This document shows, piece by piece, positions 1 through 14,502 of a stretch of DNA of 64,000 nt (positions within the stretch are counted from its first letter, which is position 1; each line of letters starts with the position of its first letter). The notes under the pieces were generated by a model. The model did not search any database, had not been told where the DNA came from, and saw only the letters and a list, made by a program, of their open reading frames with translations. The stretch lies in the NCBI GenBank assembly GCA_918026815.1, contig CAKJVC010000012.1:620001-684000 (forward strand), read 5' to 3'. The position numbers were made by a program, and so were the translations under genes. Source of the DNA: Chalara sp. BL73 (taxonomy: Eukaryota; Ascomycota; Leotiomycetes; Helotiales).

Positions 1-2031
1 TCTATTTAGCGAAACAATAGCATCTACCAATGCATATGGCAACATATCAACAAGGATTTCATATATATTAAATACTTCATTAGCTCTCGCGATACAGAAT
101 TTTGAAATCCACCACCAGCAGCTATATGTCGCATATTTGACCTTTGCGGCTATCGCAGATTACGAAGCGGTCCAGAAGTTTGGAAGGAGCCACCATGAAG
201 CAAAGGTTTTCATGAACAACCAATTGAAGGCTGACATTATTAGTCCCGATGCTCCTTTTCACAATCACCCAGTCAAATCATGCCACAACTATTCCTTTAA
301 CAACCGGCGCAGATATTACTCCACTGATACTATGGTCGGCATTCGGGACTGCAGCAAATCAGCTAAGATGGCGAAAGTCATACACCAGACTCTTACATAA
401 GGCTACCATAAAAATGCTTACGGATTAATTCCTAACACTCAACACACGTGCATACAGTTTTCTTGTTATCTCAACAATCATGGTCTAAATTTAATCGCGA
501 AATGATTTAGTCTTTGAGGTGCCCTGGTTTTCCTTATTCTCTATCTGAGGTCATCTATCTGAGATCAGCGCAAATGAAGCACCAGGCTGTTGGTGACTCA
601 CGCTCAGAATGGAAAGTAATACATAGCATAATGCTACTACTGACTAGTACAGTGGTTGACAAAACCCGCCTCCTTGGTTTCCATTTAACGCTGAGCTTAT
701 CGTGGTGAGCTTTGCGGCTTAAGCCACGAGGCATTCAGGGGCTTGCATGGCGTGAGGCTTGCCGCATCAACAGCGGCAACGTCTTGCCAAGCAGTATTTA
801 CAAATTTCATCAGAATAGAGGCTGTGAACCAAGTGACTGTGAATGAGCCCCTATTTAAGCGAGGGCTCAAGAACATGAGTTTAAAACAATGGAGACGTGG
901 AAGGATATAGAATGCTGCAAGAGAGCTATACTTTGTTCTGCGATCATGACTTCTATCCGTATCTTTTCAATTCACTTCCTCTTATTTGCGGTAACCATTT
1001 CATCAATTATTGTGCTAGCTAGCTGGGATTTGCCTTATTCTTCCCTGCCATCTGCAGCCCTATGTACATTTCTTCTCTTGTATCTTGAAGTTTCTTTTTG
1101 CATTGATTTAATCATGCTTAATCACACTCTGACATCAGCGGTTGATTGTTGTTCCGTATTTGTGTCTTAGTTGGTCTCGTGTAGTCCCTGCGCCTCTAGT
1201 GTTTTTTCTACCGATATTACCTCTTCCCAATCGCATAGTCGCTTCGTAAGAGGCACAATTAAGAGTTACACCAAGATTGAACTCACTTGTGCGGCGCAAA
1301 ATGTGCGGCTGAAATTAACGTACTACTGGCTATCCAGATTGTGTTGCTTATGGGCTTACTTCCAGCTTTGTTAATTGTGTGGATGACCACATCCTTGCCG
1401 ACGCCCATGTGGCCACACGTGGGCAAGGTCACATTTCAGCAATCCAGTTGCTTGTCTTCTGCATGATTCGCGAACAAAATTCCATAAAAATATGGGTTTG
1501 ATTCATGGGGGTTCATCTCCTAGCACTCATTGGCTGCCACCAAAGTCATCGGCCATCTATTTTTGTGTCTGTTCCTGAGATCGGCATAGAAGCGATATCA
1601 CTTCGGAACTCAGGATTATTTTGTGTGGGTAAGTTCTGCCACAATAATGAACCTACAATGTCATTTCGCATATTGCAAAAGGGCACAGATGGACAGACTT
1701 CCGTGTTTGAGTGTTTGGTGTCCAAATCCGGTAGTCATTAACCTTTTTTTTCTGTAATAAAGCCCCTTTCCAAGTTACAACTTACCTGGGCGTAAGAAAG
1801 AGACCACAGACTGATCAGCCCGCTTAAATTTGAGGCACTGCTTAGAATAAGCCATTAGGCATGGAACGAAGACACCACGCCTCCCGTGTTAACAGAATAA
1901 TATACCGAGCTTACACAAGATGTGGCAATTGCGAGCCTTTGGTCATCTTAAGATAATATATAAGAAGCAATGGATTCTTCAAACGATGCTCTATCGCCCA
2001 CGGTCTATTCCTCGAGTTCTCCACGTTCAGG
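1..2031. other. Upstream region without a supported gene
   Basis: About 2 kb with no open frame that resembles a protein family. The short frames are under 115 codons, lack recognisable motifs and have no consistent splice structure. An imperfect palindrome lies at 1393-1428. The last 75 nt before the oxidase start hold a TATA-like box, so the right end is promoter. Confidence 0.6.
1957..1964 (+). promoter_or_regulatory. TATA-like box of the multicopper oxidase gene
   Basis: TATATAAG lies about 75 nt upstream of the ATG at 2032, on the correct strand. The distance suits a fungal core promoter, but this is position and motif only. Confidence 0.45.
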
Positions 2032-3998
2032 ATGGGTTTTCTTACTGATTTCAAAATCGACTTCTTGACATTACTGTCTTTCTTCTCGTTATTTTCCCTT
2101 ATTAATGCGGTTCCAGCAGAACTTTCCCGTCCTCATCAAAATGTTCGGCGATACGACTTGACTGTCACATGGGAAACAGGAGCACCAGATGGATTTTCCA
2201 GGAAGCTTTTTAAGGTTAACGGAAAATTCCCAGCACCACTTCTGGAGTTTAACGAAGGGGACGACGTTATTGTCTTTGTAAATAATCAATCACCACACAA
2301 TATTTCTATCCACTATCATGGTATGCCATTGGATCCTATACCTGTATCAAAGTTTTTCTTTTCTTGTGGTTAATTTATTTTAGGAATTGAGATGTTGAAT
2401 ACCCCATGGTCGGATGGAGTTCCTGGTCTAACACAACGACCTATCCAGCCAGGGTGCGCATTCGCATATAAATGGAAGGCAACGCAGCATGGATCTTACT
2501 GGTACCACTCTCACTCTGCGAGTCAACTCAATGACGGCCTTTATGGTGCCTTGATAATTCATCCCAAAGCTGGCACAGCCAAGCCATATGGACTGGTTAC
2601 CACGAATACCCAATCTTTGGCACTAATCGAAAAGGCCGAGAGAAATCGCATACCACTTCTGTTGGGCGATTGGAGGCACACGGAGTCCAAAGTCGAGACG
2701 GAGATTTCGGAAAGGTCACATATAGAACACCTTGCGTTCGATTCACTTCTAATTAACGGCAAGGGGAAAGTAAACTGCCTCACCCCTCAGCAGCAACAGC
2801 CATTCATTACCCCTAGAATGGCTTTTCTCCTTTCACTCGCCCCAAATGCAACACTCACGGATAAGTCGTAAGTCATCCCCCACTCATATTTCCGATTTTG
2901 TCTAATTGTCGTAGATGTTTACCACCCGAGGTCTATTCAGCCATAGACCCGCCAGGAGGGCCACCAGTTGACCTTAGCGTCATTCCTCATAATCTGTTTT
3001 ATGAGTGCAGCCCTACAAGTACAACTCCCCATGTCACGACGATCAAGCGGCCCAGGACCGAAAATGAGACATGGGTCGTCTTTGATCTGATCGGAGCATC
3101 TGGGGTGCATTTAAGTCAAGCATCTATTGATGAGATAAATGGTTGGGTGGTAGCTCTAGACGGCAACTACATTGAACCAGTCCGGGCCAATGTCTTTTTC
3201 ATGGCCCATGGCCAGCGCTACACTATTCTTGCCAAGTTTACAGAAGCTAAGAAGTACACTCTTCGTCTCAGTTCTATAATTGACCCACAGATTCTTTTTG
3301 CGACAGCTATAATCGACTTCCAAATCATAGGCAAGCCTCAGTCGACTGCCCCGTCTGTGCCCTTCATCAACGAACGCGGCCAAAACGTGAGCGCAGCTGC
3401 GATCTTCTACGACGGCTCGGTCGCGAAGCCATACCCACCGGCGGCGATACCTGCTACCGTCGACGCAACGTACAAATTGACGATGCGAATAGGTACATCA
3501 ACCAATATATGGGCATTCAATACCACTGCCCGCGTCGAAGATGAAGCTGTCACACCACTCCTCTTCAGCCCACAACCCGGCCGGCAGGATAACCACACCA
3601 TCACCGTGCCCTCGGAGATGTCGTGGGTAGACTATATCATGCTGATTCCAAACGGGCAACCCGCGCATCCCATACACTTCCACGGGCGACACTTTCACGT
3701 CATCGGGTCGGGCAGTGGTGCCTTTCCCTGGTCCTCCGTTGCTGAAGCCTCCCAACACCTACCAGCCGGCACGTTCAATCTAGTAAACCCTCAACTGAGG
3801 GATACGTACTACACGCCTGGAGGGGAGGGGTGGCTCGCGGTGAGAAGGCCGAGTGATAATGAGGGTGTTTGGTTGGTGCATTGCCATGTCATGAGTCATT
3901 TGCAGGGCGGCATGAGCATGCTTATCCAGGATGGAACGGATAGTGGAATCTTCGTGCCGCCCGCATATAGGGATTACCAGTGTGCGCCTCAGACCTAA
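2032..3998 (+). CDS. Secreted multicopper oxidase (laccase-like)
   Basis: Exons 2032-2320, 2384-2867 and 2915-3998 give 618 residues. The start begins a clear signal peptide (hydrophobic LLSFFSLFSLINA). All four copper-binding signatures are present: HYHG (split by intron 1), WYHSHSASQLNDGLYG, HPIHFHGRHFHVIG and the C-terminal HCHVMSHLQGGM. In the last, HCH binds the type 1/type 3 coppers and the Met five residues after the following His fits the axial type 1 position. Such enzymes oxidise phenols, metals or pigment precursors while reducing oxygen to water, outside the cell or in the wall. The L2 and L4 segments differ from classic wood-decay laccases, so a broader ascomycete multicopper oxidase (pigment-type or ferroxidase-type) is a safer name. 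It converges with the HeLo gene. Confidence 0.93.
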
Positions 3999-4391: not shown

Positions 4392-5342
4392 CTATTTATC
4401 GCCATAGAAATTGCCTTGGGAAAATCTCACGTTCTTCCCAAATTTGCTACGTAACACGCGAAGGCGCCGAATTCCTTCAGGCAAGATCTCGCCTTTGTAG
4501 TCGTTTGCGAGGCAGGTCCCTTGGTGAATCGAGGAGCCGTCATCGACGGTATTTTCAATCCACTCAATCTTTGAGATATGGTCCCCGCGGGTGCCGATAG
4601 CCTCCGCAACCTTCCTTTGAAGAATGCCATCTAGAAGACGGTCGCCCTCGTTATCCGCCTCGTCGTTATCCTGAACACAGCTCTCCGCGATAGGTTCTTT
4701 CAGAATTTGGTTTAGAAGCACCATGTTTTGATCGTCATTGATTTCTCGAATCTCTTCCTCACAAAGCCTTTGCTGCGCCATCTCTGCGGCAGGTACCAGG
4801 CTCACAAGAGAAGTGACGAAGCCAGTAAGGTCCACGAGCAAATCGGTAAAATCGTCCTTCCTGTATAGCGCCCACTTGACCTTCTGCGTCACAGTCGATT
4901 CCTTTTGCCTTCGGGTTGCAAGTTCTTTGATTTTCGTATGAAGTAATCTAAGATCGGAATGAGCCATATTTGAAATGGTCTCGTTCTCATCTACCGCAGC
5001 AGACTTTTTATTTCTCAGCTTCTGCCGCTGAGATAATTTCGTCGCGGTCTCGAATGAATCAAGTATCTGGCCAAGCGTTTTCTTGACGAGCTCTAATTGC
5101 GCATCAGAGACCTTCAGTTTATTCCGGAGTGTAGAAACAGCGACAGTATCGTCTCCTTCATTGATTCCGACCGATTCTCCCCATCGGGTAAAACGGAGAT
5201 GCGCGAGTTCTAGCTTGATGATGCATTTTTCGTAATCCTTGCCGAGATTTCGACCGACTCTAATGTAATTAAAGCAATCCACGCAAGCCTTGAAGGTCCC
5301 TACTAAACCGACTGTACCCTGAGTGAGGCTTATAGGCTCCAT
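4392..5342 (-). CDS. HET-S-like protein: HeLo domain plus two C-terminal amyloid repeats
   Basis: Single exon, 316 residues, close to the 289 residues of HET-s/HET-S. Residues 1 to about 225 form a HeLo domain: it starts with TQGTVGLVGTFKACVDCF, carries DYEKCIIKLELAHLRFTRWG, and has the late block KVKWALYRKDDFTDLLVDL. In this family HeLo is a membrane-permeabilising executor of fungal cell death. After an acidic linker the tail holds two pseudo-repeats with the shared cores GSSIHQGT (QG at residues 274-275) and NVRFSQGN (QG at 309-310). They are 35 residues apart, nearly the 36-residue offset of the two strands-sets in the HET-s prion fold. The divergent neighbour at 6192 is an NLR whose N-terminus carries the same core (SRFRQGH). 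Known HET-S is triggered by amyloid templating from such an NLR; that role here is inference from family and context. Confidence 0.9.
   Translation of the reverse strand: MEPISLTQGTVGLVGTFKACVDCFNYIRVGRNLGKDYEKCIIKLELAHLRFTRWGESVGINEGDDTVAVSTLRNKLKVSDAQLELVKKTLGQILDSFETATKLSQRQKLRNKKSAAVDENETISNMAHSDLRLLHTKIKELATRRQKESTVTQKVKWALYRKDDFTDLLVDLTGFVTSLVSLVPAAEMAQQRLCEEEIREINDDQNMVLLNQILKEPIAESCVQDNDEADNEGDRLLDGILQRKVAEAIGTRGDHISKIEWIENTVDDGSSIHQGTCLANDYKGEILPEGIRRLRVLRSKFGKNVRFSQGNFYGDK
4395..4472 (-). other. Amyloid pseudo-repeat R2 of the HeLo protein
   Basis: Codes for residues 291-316, the extreme C-terminus. The core is FGKNVRFSQGNFYG. It aligns without gaps to R1 and to the NLR motif through the pattern [VF]-[GD]-[DK]-x-x-[RS]-[FI]-x-Q-G-[NTH], and resembles the second HET-s repeat (Gly, then charged/polar residues, then GN-x-YGG). 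Confidence 0.75.
4491..4577 (-). other. Amyloid pseudo-repeat R1 of the HeLo protein
   Basis: Codes for residues 256-284. The core VDDGSSIHQGT aligns to R2 and to the NLR N-terminal motif. Hydrophobic positions alternate with polar ones, as expected for a beta-solenoid layer. Confidence 0.72.
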
Positions 5343-6191
5343 GTTGTTTGCTTGACGATCTGTTATTGATGATATATTGAAAAAGCAAGTGCATAGATGA
5401 GGTACCGTAATCTGTTGGAAACAAATTCAATTATTGGCATACAGAGGCAGAGGAGAGATATATATACCGTTAGTAATTCCAGGGTGCAAATCGCCGGCGT
5501 GGGTTGCGGAGGTTGTAAATATTAGGGTAAGGCTCTGAACAAGGCACTACAAACAACACCTGGCTAATAACACATAACATTCAACGGATATTACCCAATA
5601 GGCTAAAAGATTAGTGAAGGGCTATAGTAATATTGGTTGTATTTCAACCAAGGAACGAACTTCACGAGATACATGATATAACATGATGTATATGACTTGA
5701 TTGTTGAACACTGGGTTGACAATTCGGCCTCCTCAATACTATTCCTGAATAGGGAGAGAAGGGTAACAATACCATACCTACAGAGGCCTAGTGCATTTAC
5801 TAGCGGCTAAACATGCCTAAGTAGTCTCGATTGGGGCCTGCAGCGTTTCTTAGAAGGTCGTTCTGATCCAACCAACTATCTGTCTGGGCTAATTAGAAAC
5901 AGTCAACATTAGCTGCGGACTCAGTCATTGGACATGGCGGCTTCGTCCTCAAACATGACTCACCTAATGCTTAAACGACGATGCATCGTTGTGCTAGTAT
6001 GCGTGAGGCAGAGGCTAGACGAGTAGTGAAGCTTGAATCCACATTAAGTGGCTATGGTCCTATACGAAAACAATAAATGTGTTGTCTTGAAAATCATCTT
6101 ATTCAATGTGATTTTACAACTTGATTCCGTGGACTATCTTTAAAGTTCAACCTGCCTTATATGCTCTTGTGGAAATTAGTACGTGTTTATT
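5343..6191. promoter_or_regulatory. Divergent promoter region between HeLo and NLR genes
   Basis: About 850 nt separate the two divergent start codons. No gene is visible. TATATATA at 5459-5466 sits 117 nt upstream of the HeLo ATG and could serve it. The divergent layout would allow shared control of executor and sensor, which is inference. Confidence 0.55.
5459..5466 (-). promoter_or_regulatory. TATA-like box of the HeLo gene
   Basis: TATATATA, 117 nt upstream of the HeLo start codon. The motif is palindromic, so strand is assigned only from distance. Confidence 0.35.
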
Positions 6192-8688
6192 ATGGGTAGA
6201 ATCAGAACGCGTGATATCACGGCAAGCAAGGTCACAGTTGGCGATAGAAGCCGCTTTCGTCAAGGCCACAATATACACTACAATCACGGGATCTCGCCAG
6301 ATAGTCCGTGGGACCTTGTGTCAGATCCACAGAAGAGCTTCGATGCCGCTCTAGAAAAGCGCACGCCAGGCACCGGAATGTGGTTTTTGAAATCCAAAGA
6401 GTACATGGATTGGAGGGCTGGAGACGAGCAGGCAAGTTTCTTGGTTTTACATGGACGGTCGGGCTGTGGCAAGACAATTCTCAGGTAAGTATTTTTTATC
6501 AGCGTCCTGGCCATTATTTAAAGTTGATTTGCTGCAAGTTCCACCATTATCGAGGATTTACTAGAATTTGCACAGCAACAGCCGAAGTGCCCTACAAAAG
6601 ACCCCGCCTCTGCTATTGCGTTCTACTACTTTGATTCGAATCAATCCGATAGACAAAACACACGGGACTTTCTGCTCTCTCTCATCAGCTTCCTAACGGC
6701 ACATTCAACAGCCAACGACGTAAGGATAATTCGAGATCAGTGTAAAGTTGATTCTACAAGAAAAATCGCCGACTTTGTTTGCGAATTACTTGAAAAACGA
6801 TCGAGAACGCATCTCGTTATTGATGGGCTGGACGAATGTCGACGCGGCCAACAGATTCGAGATGAAATACTGAAGAAATTAAAACGGTTCGTGAAGCTGA
6901 AAAACTTGTCGGTCTTGATCACAACCCAAGGCGGTGAATCCCTTGAGAGCATAAAAAGAACTTTTACAGAAGATATAAAACCATTTGTTCTCTCTCTTCC
7001 TGTGCAGCAGATTCAGGGCGACATCAAGCTTTTTATCCACGAAAAATTACAAGATATCGGCTGGAAATTGGAAGAAACTGTCATGGGCGAGATTCGCAAG
7101 ACGCTATCGAGCTCAGCAGGTGGAATGTGAGGTTTCCCGCAACATCGTGTATTGCATTAATTTAGAATTTAATAGGTTCCGTTTGAGAGCTTGCCAAGTC
7201 GATGAGCTCAGTCGTCTCACGGACAACGATGAATCAATAACGGAGAGCATGGTCAGAGAAGTGCTGAGGACTCTTCCTCCACTTGTGACCTCTTACTACG
7301 ACAAAATACTTCAACGGGTACCTTCGAAAGAGAAAGATATCGTTATATCTTTGCTAAACTGGCTCGTGTGTATGAAAAGGCCGTTATTATTGGCCGAGGC
7401 TGAAGAGCTCGTTCACTTGCATTTCAGGCAAATGGGCGAAAAGCTGGCCGAAAAATGTCTAGCATATCTGCTAAAACGATTCTCAAGCTTGATTGATGTA
7501 GTCGAGATCAATATTTATCCACTGTCAGATCTCGAGTCAACGCCCAGAACATTCCATCCGAGACACCCATTTGCTAAGCATAAACTCATACGGTTATCTC
7601 ATGCCTCTGTCCGGGAATATTTGTGTGGAACATCTATCATAGCTGCGCAGTTGGCTGAGTTTTCTATTGAAAACAGGAAGGCTCATCGTGCTGTAGCTCA
7701 TGATTGCTTGCGGTTTCTCGAATTCTGTGATTCGGCTGATCCTCACCGCATTCCAAGTTGTCAACATTGTCCACTTCAGAGATCCTCTTTGATGAGTTAT
7801 GCAGTGGGTCACTGGTATTATCATGCTTTCCATCACCAGGAAGGTTATTATCCACCTTCCTACCTCGGGAGAGGATTTACTTTTGATATCCATAACCAAT
7901 CTCCTTCAAGATTCCAGCGCCTTTTTCAGAGCACATTTATTGCAAGTTCGTTTTCAGGCTGGATAAATCTTTCAAATAAGTTAATCGACGATATACCAGG
8001 TGGCCATTACTTCAATGCAGAAGCCGTTTTACCTGCGACAATAGGAGGATACTGGCACATTGTTCGGCTGATCTTAGCCCATAATGCCACAATAGAACAC
8101 TACGACTTCTCCGGCGGCATTGTGATGGCAGCAGTGTCAGGGGAGTTCTCCAAATTACTGACCCTTCTGCTTGAAGACTTAAGGGTAGATGAAGACGGTC
8201 TCAAAAACGTATTACTTGGTGTACTGTCACAGCAGACCTGGCTAGACACCTTCCGAGACAAAACATCATTATTAGGACGGCTTTACGATTTGAAGCTTCT
8301 ACAAAACGAAGAAACGTGTATCGAGTTCCTGAAGCTCCTATTCTCTCCAAATGACCAGAGGTGCCTAACACCGGAAATTGTTGATATAGCGGACATGCAT
8401 GGCTGCACGGCATTGCATGAGGCTATCCGCAGAGGGTATACGAAGGTGGTGGAAATGCTCATCAATGCAGGTGCTGATGTTAACAAACCCAGTTATTCAG
8501 ACGAATACCCTTTGGACTTGGCACTCCAGACGGAAAATCCTGAAATACTAGCCATGCTTCTTGAGGCCCAAGCCGTAGGGCAACCTGAGAATGTGGGAGA
8601 TGACCCTTCTTGGCAGGACGACATTTGCACATTTCAAGCTCATGTACCAAACCACTTCTCAGAGCACATCTCATACACTTGGAAGTAA
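6192..8688 (+). CDS. NLR: N-terminal HET-s-like amyloid motif, NACHT domain, ankyrin repeats
   Basis: Exons 6192-6484, 6539-7126 and 7176-8688 give 797 residues. An in-frame stop at 6177-6179 makes ATG 6192 the first available start. Residues 9-33 carry a short motif (VGDRSRFRQGH) matching both tail repeats of the divergent HeLo protein. NACHT follows: Walker A GRSGCGKT at about 88-95, FYYFDS, and Walker B HLVIDGLDEC at about 189-198. The third exon resumes with the MFRLRACQVDELSRL segment usual after NACHT. The C-terminus (about 699-775) has two ankyrin-type repeats (GCTALHEAIRRGYTKVVEML, then EYPLDLALQ). Such STAND proteins oligomerise on ligand binding; the N-terminal motif would then seed the HeLo protein. 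WD or TPR sensors are also known in this architecture; here the sensor is ankyrin-like and rather short. The ligand is unknown. Confidence 0.9.
6216..6290 (+). other. N-terminal amyloid motif R0 of the NLR
   Basis: Codes for residues 9-33. The core VGDRSRFRQGHNIHY aligns with R1 and R2 of the HeLo protein encoded about 1.6 kb away. In known HET-S systems the NLR carries a single such motif at its N-terminus, as here. Confidence 0.75.
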
Positions 8689-9572: not shown

Positions 9573-10358
9573 TCATCGCCAGCACCGCAATCTTCTGAAG
9601 AATGCTTTGATCTTTGATGGTTTCTTCTCTACGTTCCTATCAGGGAAGCCCATCTCCTTCTCTGGACCTCCAGGCAACGGACTCAAAGGTGCTGTGACCG
9701 CTCTTCTTGTCCCAAGCGTCTGACTCGCTACAATCGTGTTCCTGCTGCTCAGTCTTTGCGCTGAATCATCCATACTCGCAATCCTCCTCGCCTCTACTAC
9801 CCTCCTCACAATCAACGCAAACGTCTCCTCGATATTGACTGTATTTCTCGCGCTGGTCTCCATGAACCCGCAGCCATGCTTCCTAGCCCATTCGAGGCCC
9901 ATCTGCGCGCTCACTTGTCTCTGTGCCTGTAAATCACATTTGTTCCCTGCAACAATCTTGATAGGTCGAACGAAACCTTGCCCGGGTTCACCTCTGCGAG
10001 CGGTCTCCTCCGCCCAGCCTTCTTCTCGTGTGTCGGTCTCCATGTCAATGAGGTCGTTGAAGTAGTTGAGCTGGTCTAGGCTGTTTAGGGACGTGATATC
10101 GTAGACTAGTAGGAAGGCATCCGAGCGCAGGTTTGAAGATGCCCACATCCCCCGGTATTCTTCTTGCCCTGCCGTATCTGTGATGGAGAGGTGGTAGGTT
10201 CGCCCGTCGATATTGCGCGTAAGCGTGTACGAGTCCTCTATCGTAGGGTCATATTCGTGTGTCCACTGAGAGCGTACCAAACGCAAGGTTATTGATGATT
10301 TGCCACATCCACCGTCACCGCAGATTGTGATCGTTATTCGAGGTGTAGAATCGTTCAT
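9573..10358 (-). CDS. Ras-family small GTPase without a standard CaaX box
   Basis: Single exon, 261 residues. The G motifs are complete: G1 GDGGCGKS, switch I YDPTIEDSY, G3 DTAGQEEY, G4 GNKCDL and G5 ETSAR. YDPTIEDSY is the Ras effector loop, which separates it from Rho, Rab and Arf families. It is longer than Ras (about 190 residues) because of a loop of about 25 residues after ETDTREEGWAEE, before the G4 strand, and a C-terminal extension. The tail ends in a basic patch and RRLRCWR: the last Cys is third from the end, so the protein lacks a CaaX prenylation signal. It may bind membranes through the basic patch, or a terminal intron may be missed. The upstream strand is pyrimidine-rich. Role presumably signalling; the exact Ras subgroup is not clear. 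Confidence 0.9.
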   Translation of the reverse strand: MNDSTPRITITICGDGGCGKSSITLRLVRSQWTHEYDPTIEDSYTLTRNIDGRTYHLSITDTAGQEEYRGMWASSNLRSDAFLLVYDITSLNSLDQLNYFNDLIDMETDTREEGWAEETARRGEPGQGFVRPIKIVAGNKCDLQAQRQVSAQMGLEWARKHGCGFMETSARNTVNIEETFALIVRRVVEARRIASMDDSAQRLSSRNTIVASQTLGTRRAVTAPLSPLPGGPEKEMGFPDRNVEKKPSKIKAFFRRLRCWR

Positions 10359-12204
10359 CTTGTATGTGTCTCGTAATTCTCGGTGGGCTGGGGGTAGCTG
10401 CGTGTAAGTAGATGGTGTAGTTGAACGAATGTGACGTGATGAAGGATCACACGGGGTCGAGCAGGAAATCTACGAAATCCAGCGCTACCAGTTTGTCCTT
10501 CACCAACCCTCGCCGTGCACTCTCTGGTGTTTCTTGCAGCACCCAAGGTTCTACCCCTCGTCTGAACCTCTGTGCGGGCCTTTCTTATTCCTCGCTCTCT
10601 CCCAATCGCGGTTGCCTGGTTAAAAAAAAAAGCAAACCTCGATTGAGCTGCAGTCACCCCTATCGCAATGCTTTGTCACAAAAGAAAGCCTTATCGTAAG
10701 GGGAAAAGATTTGTGGTCGAGGAAGTGGAGGGCTGGATATTGACTCGTCTCATAAGGCCGGGATTACGCTGATAGGGAATTTGGAGGTGGCGGGGAGAGG
10801 CTCGTGGGTTTACTAGGGTCTGAGATACGTTTCATGCGTGCTCCTCGAGTCTTGCGCAAGGCTGATCGTTCCCAATCCAGGTAAACCGAGTCAGAAGAGC
10901 GCAGAATTGTTGACGTTGTAAAGAGAGTTGCGGCTGCTGAAGGGAAATTATGATTTCGGTGGGAAAGAAAGGTCGGTGTAGTGTATGGAGTTTCATGTAT
11001 TGGATGTTGCTTTGGGCGTTTGTCGTTTGTCGATCGTGAGCGCCACCAATTTCTGACCCGGACATTTTAACCGGTAGCAATACTACTTAATTCGTCTGAT
11101 ATTGGGAGAGAAGACCCGAACTGGTGCTGCAAGCCATGTTTGTGCGAGAGCATTCGAATCAACGAGATGATCTGCTTTAGGGGTTTTACAGTAAAGTGGT
11201 GTCGGAGGGTTACCGTCGTGAGACGATACGACTGGCGAAGCTCACCTGCATTAGTTCAAGGCAAGCATTCCAGATGACAGCATGAACTCCTGGGGATTCA
11301 AACGCGGATTACGGATAGGTCAAGAGGGGGGGGTTCAAGCTTAGTTCAGGATATCACATCACTCTCCCTATTACTGTGACTTACCATATGGTGTTAAGGG
11401 GATTTTCAACGCCCCAAAAGGTCAAATAAGTAACTATCTTGGCACCGTTTTAACGGGAGGGGACCAAACGACCCGCCGAATGAGCTCTAGAAGGCCCGAA
11501 GATCCTCTTCCCCCAAGAGATCGACACTTCCCCGTTGTTTTTCCACGTTTTTTTACTAACGGGGAGAACGGCTTTAAACGGCCTGACCCTGAGGGGATTG
11601 CGGTTGATCTTGATGCCCATCAGGCCCAAATACGCAGACTCGGATAAATGGAAGGCTAGAATTGGATCTCCGATATCCAAATCAAGGGTTGGGTGGGTGA
11701 GAGCTGCTGTGTCGAGATCACCCTGGCAAAACAATATGTGTGTTGAGTGTAACCTTACGGAAGGACAATAGAAACAATACCTATTGGTTTCCAATTTGGA
11801 GAACGCGTTATGACCACCAAGGCCAAGATAATTGGATGCCATTTTTCTATGCGATGGTGACTACTGCGGAGAAGATGTTTGTGACACTCAGATATTCAAA
11901 TTGTACGGAGTGGGATGAGGGGATGGAGCCAAGCTCGTGGTGTCCGTAAATTATTACACACCGCTTGACAAATACCAGTCATCAACAAAGCCATTTCTTA
12001 CCGTTTAGACTCTCTTCTACCTACACCAAAACCCTCAATCTTAAGATTAAGTGCAAGCTTAGATCGAAAGTTGGTTTATTAAGCCACAAGGTTTCATTAT
12101 TGTGACTCTAACCTTAAGTGACAACTATAAAATGGGCCGAAACTGGGGTGAGCTAGTTCAGCAACATAACGCGAGACAAGTAATATTATCTTAGACATTA
12201 AATA
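10359..12204. other. Long intergenic region upstream of the GTPase gene
   Basis: The first few hundred bases are promoter and 5' leader of the GTPase gene. A minus-strand frame at 11450-11842 (130 codons) and its shadow at 11535-11771 have no recognisable domain; the former could be a lineage-specific gene but has no splice or composition support that I can see. No RNA gene is visible. Confidence 0.5.
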
Positions 12205-13684
12205 TTATGAACATAGAGCTAGCCAAGAAAACGCTGAGAGTATAAAAACCACCATCGATACCCGCACTTGATCGGATGCATTTCCCTTGTCATCTGTTGT
12301 CGTTGAGCTGGTTCCTGAGCCCGTGCTCGTCCCAGTCCCGGCATTAGATGTGGAGCTAGAATCACCATTTGCATCAAGTCCGCCTGCACACTGTCCTGTG
12401 ATAGAGGCGATAGCACCATCCTCCGTTCCAATCTCTACAACCTCGCCCCCACAATCCTCCTTCTTCGCCAGCCAAACGCTCTTGCTTTCCTGATCAAATA
12501 CCGTGTACGCCTTCCTCAAGAATGCGTGTCCCAGATACCAAATCCTGTCTCCCAGGTCACCTTCATCCCTCGGCAAAACACCTATGTAACACTCTGGTGT
12601 CTTGCGATCCGAAATGCCATCTTGTCGGATCACCAGCTCGCGATACGGGATGCTGATATTTAAGTTGCCGAACTGGAGGTCCAGTGATCCATTCACCCAA
12701 TTCCGCCACTCGCAGTTTATGACATACCAATCTGATCCGTACGAATCGTCCGAGATGTTATGGATAAGAAATGCAGATGCGACGGTTTGGACGATTTGGG
12801 TGGGTAGGTAGCTATGTGGGTCGATCGTTTGTGGCATCGCTGTGAAGCCGGGAACCGTAGTCGTGCTTCCTACGTCTGGATTATTTAGTGTTACATTGTC
12901 CACATTGAACCAGTATCTGGATCCAGGTCAGCCAAGAGTTTTGTCGGGTAAATAAATTTCGCATCTCACCGATATTCATCGAAACTCGATCTTTTATCTG
13001 GTGCGGGCTGAATGGGCCGTTTTTGTAAAGCACCACTAAACTTCTTAGTATCCACGCCTCCAAAAATCAGGGAGCCTTTCTCAATGTCGTTCTGGTCGAG
13101 TGTCAAGCTAAAAGCCTTTGTCTTCGCGATTCCCTGGCCTTGCAGCTCATCAATGATGTTAGAGCGATTACTGTTGATTCCCTTCCCGAAACCGAGACCC
13201 AGGCTTCCGTACCGTATGGACGTTGGAAAGTGGCTAACGCCAACAGTAACATTCTTCAGTACCGCTGCTATTCATCAGCCTGTCCTGTCCACAAAGGCGA
13301 ATGACACCTACCAGAACCACCAATGGCAAAATCATCAGCGTAGTACGTGAGCCGATGACTGTCCCCATCCTGCAAGTCCAACCAGCTCTCTTCATAATAG
13401 GTACTGCTTGTACTCAGACTCTCATTGTAAGTCCCATACTCGACACATTTGTCCTCGTTAAAGTAGAGGTTGGAACAGTTATCCACCAAGAAGGTGGCGT
13501 AGGAGCCGATATCAACTGCGAGCCTGGTGTTTTGTTTTGGATTTCCCACCGCAACATCGATTGTGTAGGTATTGTTGTCCCAACTACGAGAGAGCGGAAA
13601 GACAGTGGGCTCTGCTATGATGAGCTGGGCGACACCCAAGAGAAACACCAAACTCGTCGACCCGTGAAAATTGGAAAGCTCCAT
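12205..13684 (-). CDS. GPI-anchored pepsin-like aspartic protease homolog with altered active sites
   Basis: Exons 13684-13312, 13267-12970 and 12916-12205 give 460 residues. A signal peptide (LVFLLGVAQLIIA) leads into a pepsin-type fold: YTIDVAVGNPKQNTRLAVDIGS, then GSLGLGFGKG, SLTLDQNDIEKGSLIFGGVD and a late WYLGHAFLRKAYTVFDQE, which is the canonical 'LGdtFLRsaYvvfD' segment. The tail is Ser/Thr/Gly-rich and ends in a hydrophobic stretch, typical of a GPI signal. The first catalytic motif is D-I-G-S (Asp58) rather than DTGS. The second lies in AMPQTIDPHSYLP (Asp256), where DSGT or DTGT is expected, so the conserved Gly is missing. It may be inactive, or specialised. Intron 1 has a TAGCAG tandem acceptor, which would add or drop one residue. 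Wall-attached yapsin/OpsB-like proteins are the nearest known group. Confidence 0.88.
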
Positions 13685-14502
13685 TGTGCAACGCTTGAGC
13701 GATGACGCTTATTCCCTTCAAATCTCGTGACCACTAGAACTAGCAGCGCTTCCAGAAAATCTTTTCTCGCGTTTTGATAGAGCCACAGTTGCCACCAACT
13801 ATTAAAGTAACAATTGCTAAGTTAAAAACACCACACTAAATCGAAATGAAGAAAACGAGTGTATAGTGACAAACATCCTGCCGCCTGGCGCTGAAGGTCA
13901 TTTAAGGAAATTTTAACGCCAAGATAATACTGGGAAACGAGTCATCTCTAGGTGATGTGCGGCGCAGCATCAAATACGAGCAACAAAAGCCTGGACAAAG
14001 TTCCATCGCATCAGAAAAATGTGCTCTCTCTTAGCCTTTCTTGAATTCAAAGTCATATATACATAGTCATAGTCTATTGCCAGAAGGTTTGAACTCAACT
14101 TGAATTGTATTCAGTGGAATGGAGATGCTGGACGTGGGTAAGCGAAATAGATGCCGAGGCGCGTTCTCTTTTAGGAAGCTCGATAGATAAGCGAAGGGGT
14201 AAATCATGTGCGATTTGGCAAATTGCGATTTTTCTCTTATGAGGAAATTTATTACTGCGTTCTGACTCTACGTAGGTGCTCAGATGTTATTTCTCATATC
14301 GTAACTCGATATTGTCAATAGCATGCACAATATTTTCTCCGTTCCTTTTTTTTCCTTTTTGCATTGCCAAGAGCTATATACACCAACAACGGATAACTTC
14401 CAAGTTTATTATCTATTCTTCCATATTTATGTCCCTGTGGCTGTTTCGCCTGACTTAGCCGAGTAGCAAGACAGACGCAGTCTATCAAATTTTCTCCCCA
14501 GT
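13685..14502. other. Intergenic stretch
   Basis: About 820 nt between the protease-like gene promoter and the 3' end of the dehydrogenase gene, both on the minus strand. It is AT-rich with no supported frame. Confidence 0.6.

Follow-up and report, generated by a model that had tools for sequence, protein, structure and literature searches.

In a 64,000-nucleotide stretch of the Chalara sp. BL73 genome (contig CAKJVC010000012.1, positions 620,001 to 684,000; hereafter the window, whose own numbering is used throughout), two adjacent, divergently oriented genes encode what is in all likelihood a receptor/executor pair of the HET-S/NWD2 type. The gene on the minus strand encodes a HeLo protein, the putative executor, which carries two C-terminal repeats (r1 and r2), and the gene on the plus strand encodes a NOD-like receptor (NLR) with a NACHT domain, which carries one N-terminal motif of the same kind (r0). 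The limits that the original prediction had set for the region proved exact: the HeLo stop codon ends at position 4392, and the NLR stop codon ends at position 8688. Pairs of this kind, ankyrin ones included, are already in print, and the window pair is a well-supported further case of the signalling pairs built on HET-s-related amyloid motifs (HRAMs).

Two divergent genes with matching motifs

We numbered the motifs as 21 residues with the glycine set at position 19 and scored them with a matrix made from five database relatives (nine r1/r2 motifs), from which the window sequence was excluded. All three motifs that the original prediction had read, two at the C terminus of the HeLo protein and one at the N terminus of the NLR, were recovered together with their cores: VGDRSRFRQGH spans NLR residues 16 to 26, and VDDGSSIHQGT and FGKNVRFSQGN contain G275 and G310 of the HeLo protein. 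Gln18-Gly19 is common to the three motifs. Hydrophobic residues occupy positions 10 and 16 in all three, and position 5 in all three only if alanine is counted; a linker of 14 residues separates r1 from r2. The 56 N-terminal residues of the NLR or the 89 C-terminal ones of the HeLo protein were shuffled 20,000 times. The top score of the NLR was never attained, nor were the two highest scores of the HeLo protein, so that the motifs stood out from shuffled sequence with this purpose-built matrix, which is not an HRAM profile. We also scanned 334,741 bases in six frames (the window and, from the same genome, 41 stretches of which a few overlap). Among the resulting 664,274 21-mers, r2, r1, and r0 ranked first, second, and third, and the fourth scored 13.6 bits.

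The HeLo protein matched PF14479 with 165.1 bits against a Pfam cut-off of 23.2. Three distinct sequences of solved HET-S/HET-s N-terminal domains matched it as well, the best with an E value of 5.7e-34. The AlphaFold2 model, built with ten sequences, had a mean predicted local distance difference test (pLDDT) score of 71. Foldseek returned 67 matches to this model at E ≤10, and the four with E <0.001 were all HET-S/HET-s chains; VIA-align gave Z = 25.9 against 2wvo_A. The predicted HeLo fold matches that of the solved HET-S/HET-s N-terminal domains and bears out the HeLo assignment of the original prediction. At the positions aligned with 23 and 33 the protein has D and N, the corresponding residues being D and P in 2wvn and A and H in 2wvo. 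Since the solved proteins themselves differ there, HET-S-like or HET-s-like toxicity cannot be read off these two residues.

The NLR matched NPHP3_N (101.5 bits) and NACHT (39.7 bits), and both the Walker A (GRSGCGKT) and the Walker B (LVIDGLDE) motifs are legible in its sequence, which bears out its assignment as a NACHT NLR. Its splice model, drawn from the DNA sequence alone, needs two introns (6485 to 6538 and 7127 to 7175). The ankyrin-based sensor of the original prediction was right in kind but thin in extent: Pfam recognized repeats only at about residues 677 to 758, and the model of exon 3 (503 residues, mean pLDDT 61) is of low confidence. A search with this model gave 866 matches at E ≤10. 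One match, at 0.001, was a neurotensin-receptor entry, and the best 50 of the 866 were mostly designed ankyrin repeat proteins (DARPins) and other ankyrin-repeat proteins, with E values of 0.001 to 0.005. These matches weakly suggest an ankyrin-like sensor at the C terminus. Exon 3 also contains a C-x-x-C stretch (SCQHCPLQRSS) ahead of a YAVGHW block, and this stretch recurs in P0011, the top-scoring NLR relative.

In Podospora anserina, NWD2 and HET-S are likewise adjacent and divergent, with frames 0.6 kb apart (PMC4344463, PMC3321046) as against 849 bases here, and they too combine a HeLo effector bearing two C-terminal repeats with a NACHT NLR bearing one N-terminal repeat. The window pair differs from them in its C terminus, which is ankyrin-like rather than made of WD repeats, in the Q18 of its motifs, and in a HeLo tail without a PF11558 match. 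Ankyrin repeats are reported in some NWD2 homologues (PMC4344463), and PMC3321046 describes adjacent pairs of either arrangement, divergent or codirectional, and a mix of WD, ANK, TPR, and HEAT repeats; the accounts in PMC5485727 and PMC9815663 give the same general picture of such pairs. Membership of the HeLo tail in PF11558 (HET-s_218-289) was rejected, with no match at E ≤10, and among the double-motif proteins described in PMC4518210 only 38/155 match this family. Searching the whole genome with PF11558 also returned nothing, but all 14 controls were silent too, and the search is hence uninformative by itself.

By 2015, five HRAM subfamilies and 155 double-motif HeLo-related proteins had been described, 98 of them with an adjacent NLR, and the r1-r2 linker measured 6 to 18 residues in 154 of the 155 cases (PMC4518210). 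The general motif described there has hydrophobic residues generally at positions 5, 8, 10, 16, and 18 and glycine at 19, and Q at position 18 is the mark of HRAM4. The window pair has Q18 and G19 in all three motifs, of which the HeLo protein carries two and the NLR one, and it probably belongs to the HRAM4 class, Q18 being the one residue on which this assignment depends. It differs from that class in having a polar position 8 in r1 and r2. In addition, r0 is 33% identical to r1 and 29% identical to r2, whereas the tendency stated for HRAM4 is that r0 lies closer to r2 (PMC4518210). According to Table 2 of the same paper, 10/10 HRAM4 r0 motifs cluster with their own r1 and r2.

Charge pairing between the HeLo repeats

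A profile search gave 39 HeLo proteins, of which 24 keep the double motif and were used for the charge count. Six were set aside because their tail is partial or missing (P0064 to P0069) and nine because they are without the Q18 double motif (P0007 to P0010 and P0070 to P0074). Two duplicate r1/r2 pairs among the 24 were dropped, leaving 22 distinct pairs. The 24 relatives (P0002 to P0006 and P0045 to P0063, the last being from Agyrium rufum) are 36 to 50% identical to the window HeLo protein and have the same Q18-G19 repeat pair. Q18 was found in r1 of 24/24 and in r2 of 23/24, P0002 ending before position 18 (its shortened r2 was entered by hand); the extraction rule took QG with a W 14 residues before the glycine, so that Q18 was partly selected, and the tails were also inspected unselected.

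When r1 and r2 of the 22 distinct pairs were set in register, the facing charges were opposite in 64 cases and like in one, counts that are not probabilities, as the relatives are mutually non-independent. The other registers, from -6 to +6, gave at most 27 opposite charges, and position shuffles equalled the in-register pairing in 1 of 20,000 cases. At the level of sequence, the charge pairing of the relatives shows the evolutionary signature of in-register stacking.

In the window, r1 and r2 have opposite charges at positions 4, 7, and 12 (n = 3) and like charges at position 2 (n = 1). Position 7 is E in r1 and R in r2, against K, R, or N in r1 and D, E, or G in r2 of the relatives. A positive r1 residue faces a negative r2 residue in 20 of the 22 distinct pairs and the reverse occurs in none, so that the charges run the opposite way round to those of the window in nearly all relatives. 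Crossed stacking of the window r1 with the relatives' r2 gave 17 opposite and 23 like charges, and that of the relatives' r1 with the window r2 gave 22 and 51, respectively. The pattern at position 7 resembles that expected if a charge reversal in one of two stacked repeats had been compensated in the other.

Table 1. Positions of the pair and its parts in the window
Feature	Position	Strand	Remarks
HeLo executor gene, 1 exon, 316 aa	4392..5342	-	intact open frame; PF14479 165.1 bits
HeLo domain, residues 6-206	4725..5327	-	
Motif r1, HeLo residues 257-277, G19 = G275	4512..4574	-	22.4 bits, rank 2/664,274
Motif r2, HeLo residues 292-312, G19 = G310, then final YGDK	4407..4469	-	30.5 bits, rank 1/664,274
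Region between the two divergent start codons, 849 bases	5343..6191		from gene models; GC 0.408
NLR gene, 797 aa, exons 6192-6484, 6539-7126, 7176-8688	6192..8688	+	GT..AG splice model, open frame
Motif r0, NLR residues 7-27, G19 = G25	6210..6272	+	20.0 bits, rank 3/664,274
NPHP3_N/NACHT nucleotide-binding domain, residues 60-243, across intron 1	6369..6974	+	Pfam
Recognizable ankyrin repeats, NLR residues 677-758	8323..8568	+	Pfam Ank, Ank_2, Ank_4; low-confidence exon 3 model

The HeLo gene adjoins a multicopper oxidase (laccase-type) gene (1957 to 3998, plus strand) whose open pieces are consistent with introns. Downstream of the NLR lies a Ras-family GTPase gene (9573 to 10469, minus strand), and an aspartyl protease gene (12205 to 13708, minus strand) is split into two or more open pieces.

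Proposed mechanism and its alternatives

Chimeras of NWD2 have been reported to induce the prion fold in a ligand-dependent manner, with HET-S relocating to the membrane (PMC4344463). Because of this NWD2/HET-S precedent, we infer by analogy that the motifs of the window pair adopt an amyloid state by templating, that a ligand controls the pair, and that it kills through the membrane. As long as no ligand has met its C-terminal region, whose end is ankyrin-like, the NLR would stay inactive. Nucleotide-driven oligomerization would then gather many r0 motifs into a beta-solenoid amyloid seed, on which the HeLo tail (r1-r2), until then unfolded, would be templated. Once folded, the tail would free the HeLo domain to reach the membrane, leading to permeabilization and cell death.

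Several observations weigh against this reading. The r1/r2 charge pairing of the window taken alone is not significant, being matched by 6,314/20,000 shuffles, and r0 is charge-unfavourable against r2 (2 opposite and 3 like, compared with 2 opposite and 1 like against r1). The r0 motif is itself charged (K7, D12, R13, R15, and R17 among others), with seven charged positions that would face themselves in a homotypic stack, and the r0 motifs presented in PMC4518210 have fewer charges; it also has A at position 5. At position 8, where the general motif is hydrophobic, r1 and r2 have N or S and r0 has V. No convincing r0 was found in 34 NLR relatives, a loose Q18-G19 test ringing in only one of them, at what we judged to be the edge of the nucleotide-binding domain. 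The motif region of the HeLo model is of low confidence, with a strand pattern only and low pLDDT. Finally, a comparison of the motif profile with the PDB gave no HET-s amyloid chain, its ten matches being unrelated and the best having an E value of 0.02.

The motif profile thus gave no link to solved HET-s amyloid chains. In the structural comparisons, no HET-s amyloid structure was found for the HeLo tail among the best 50 of the 67 Foldseek matches or by VIA-align, but both comparisons hardly tested the tail portion of the model.

We consider it unlikely that the motifs are compatible without forming a private pair, in other words that the NLR fires other effectors, or other NLRs fire the HeLo protein, in a many-to-one network. 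The genome (58.7 Mb in 199 contigs) would have the parts for one: HeLo matched 23 times, a single copy sometimes giving two pieces, and NPHP3_N matched at least 152 times, with some genes likewise matched in pieces. Of the 14 prokaryote controls, 9 gave NPHP3_N matches as well. Moreover, motif-bearing NLRs adjoin HeLo frames that stop early at C59 (L019, 3500 to 4996) and C67 (L027, 3602 to 5081), where receptors may outlive their executors, and the loose motif pattern occurs in 4 of 20 further NLR loci sampled (L030 to L049), one of which (L038) we judged to be r0-like, of the L18 kind. The window motifs are nevertheless the only high scorers of the Q18 kind in the 42 stretches scanned, most NLR N termini of the genome lying outside that scan, and the adjacency and divergent order of the two genes fit the published paired arrangement.

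Slightly less probable again is a decaying relic, in which the genes are still adjacent and one of them is no longer expressed or functional. Several HeLo copies in the genome are indeed truncated or frame-broken, and the D and N aligned with positions 23 and 33 leave the toxicity of the window copy unreadable. Both window frames are, however, open from end to end, the motif residues and the opposite charges at positions 4, 7, and 12 are retained, and the dinucleotide indices of the repeat-induced point mutation (RIP) type are ordinary for the window in both genes.

It is more doubtful still that no amyloid arises and that the motif instead folds into a soluble, parallel beta-helix or serves the two proteins as an ordinary homotypic contact. 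The best PDB match of the motif profile, which is non-significant, is an acyltransferase with weak similarity in two adjacent stretches, and this enzyme belongs to a family of left-handed beta-helix proteins. However, that match is no better than chance, HRAM4 as published has the Q18-G19 and the duplicated layout seen here, and experimental amyloid precedent exists for the general class.

A coincidental similarity between the motifs is hardly credible: with only 21 residues and 33% and 29% identity of r0 to r1 and r2 it might be entertained, but chance was rejected, at the level tested, by the 20,000 shuffles and the six-frame ranking, both made with a matrix free of window sequence.

Coexisting motif classes and what they may mean

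Beside the receptor/executor pair of the window, two further divergent HeLo/NLR pairs were found in the same genome, at C195 (L009, 2931 to 5490) and C130 (L011, 3500 to 5471). In both, a HeLo frame with a double tail is divergent from an NLR with a similar N-terminal motif ending in LGD or LGN; the N-terminal motif at C195 is of the L18-G19 kind, and that at C130, ending in LGN, resembles r2 of the HeLo protein. The motifs of these pairs, like those at C59 and C67, were found by eye in translated frames, and their inner spacing is off by about one residue. Like the window pair, they carry the motif on both proteins. In their r0 and r2, however, the glycine follows L where the window pair has Q, and their HeLo domains are 36% identical to that of the window. 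Aligned ungapped in the G19 register, the six C195 and C130 motifs scored -13.2 to -2.0 bits on the window-class matrix, compared with 20.0 bits for the window r0, and the window pair therefore represents a discrete motif class. Among the NPHP3_N matches listed, 26 start at profile positions 10 to 16, and 22 of these 26 are of 511 to 582 residues; they represent a family of NLR frames, which includes the sampled loci L030 to L049.

With the window pair, the amyloid-signalling pairs gain a well-formed receptor of the ankyrin type, together with a discrete motif class that stands beside two other divergent pairs in one genome. Because three motif pairs coexist there, cross-seeding between motif classes can be tested within one species. 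Specialists would look at this coexistence and at the charge reversal. The reversal at position 7 also provides a specific prediction at the level of single residues. Rather speculatively, and with more doubt than belief, we propose that several insulated amyloid channels run in parallel in this genome and that this pair illustrates how such insulation can arise, namely by a paired charge reversal (E7 in r1 and R7 in r2, as opposed to K or R and D or E, respectively, in relatives) that would keep self-stacking favourable and would make stacking with the repeats of relatives unfavourable. If this were true, the pair would represent a natural orthogonal seeding code that is readable from sequence.

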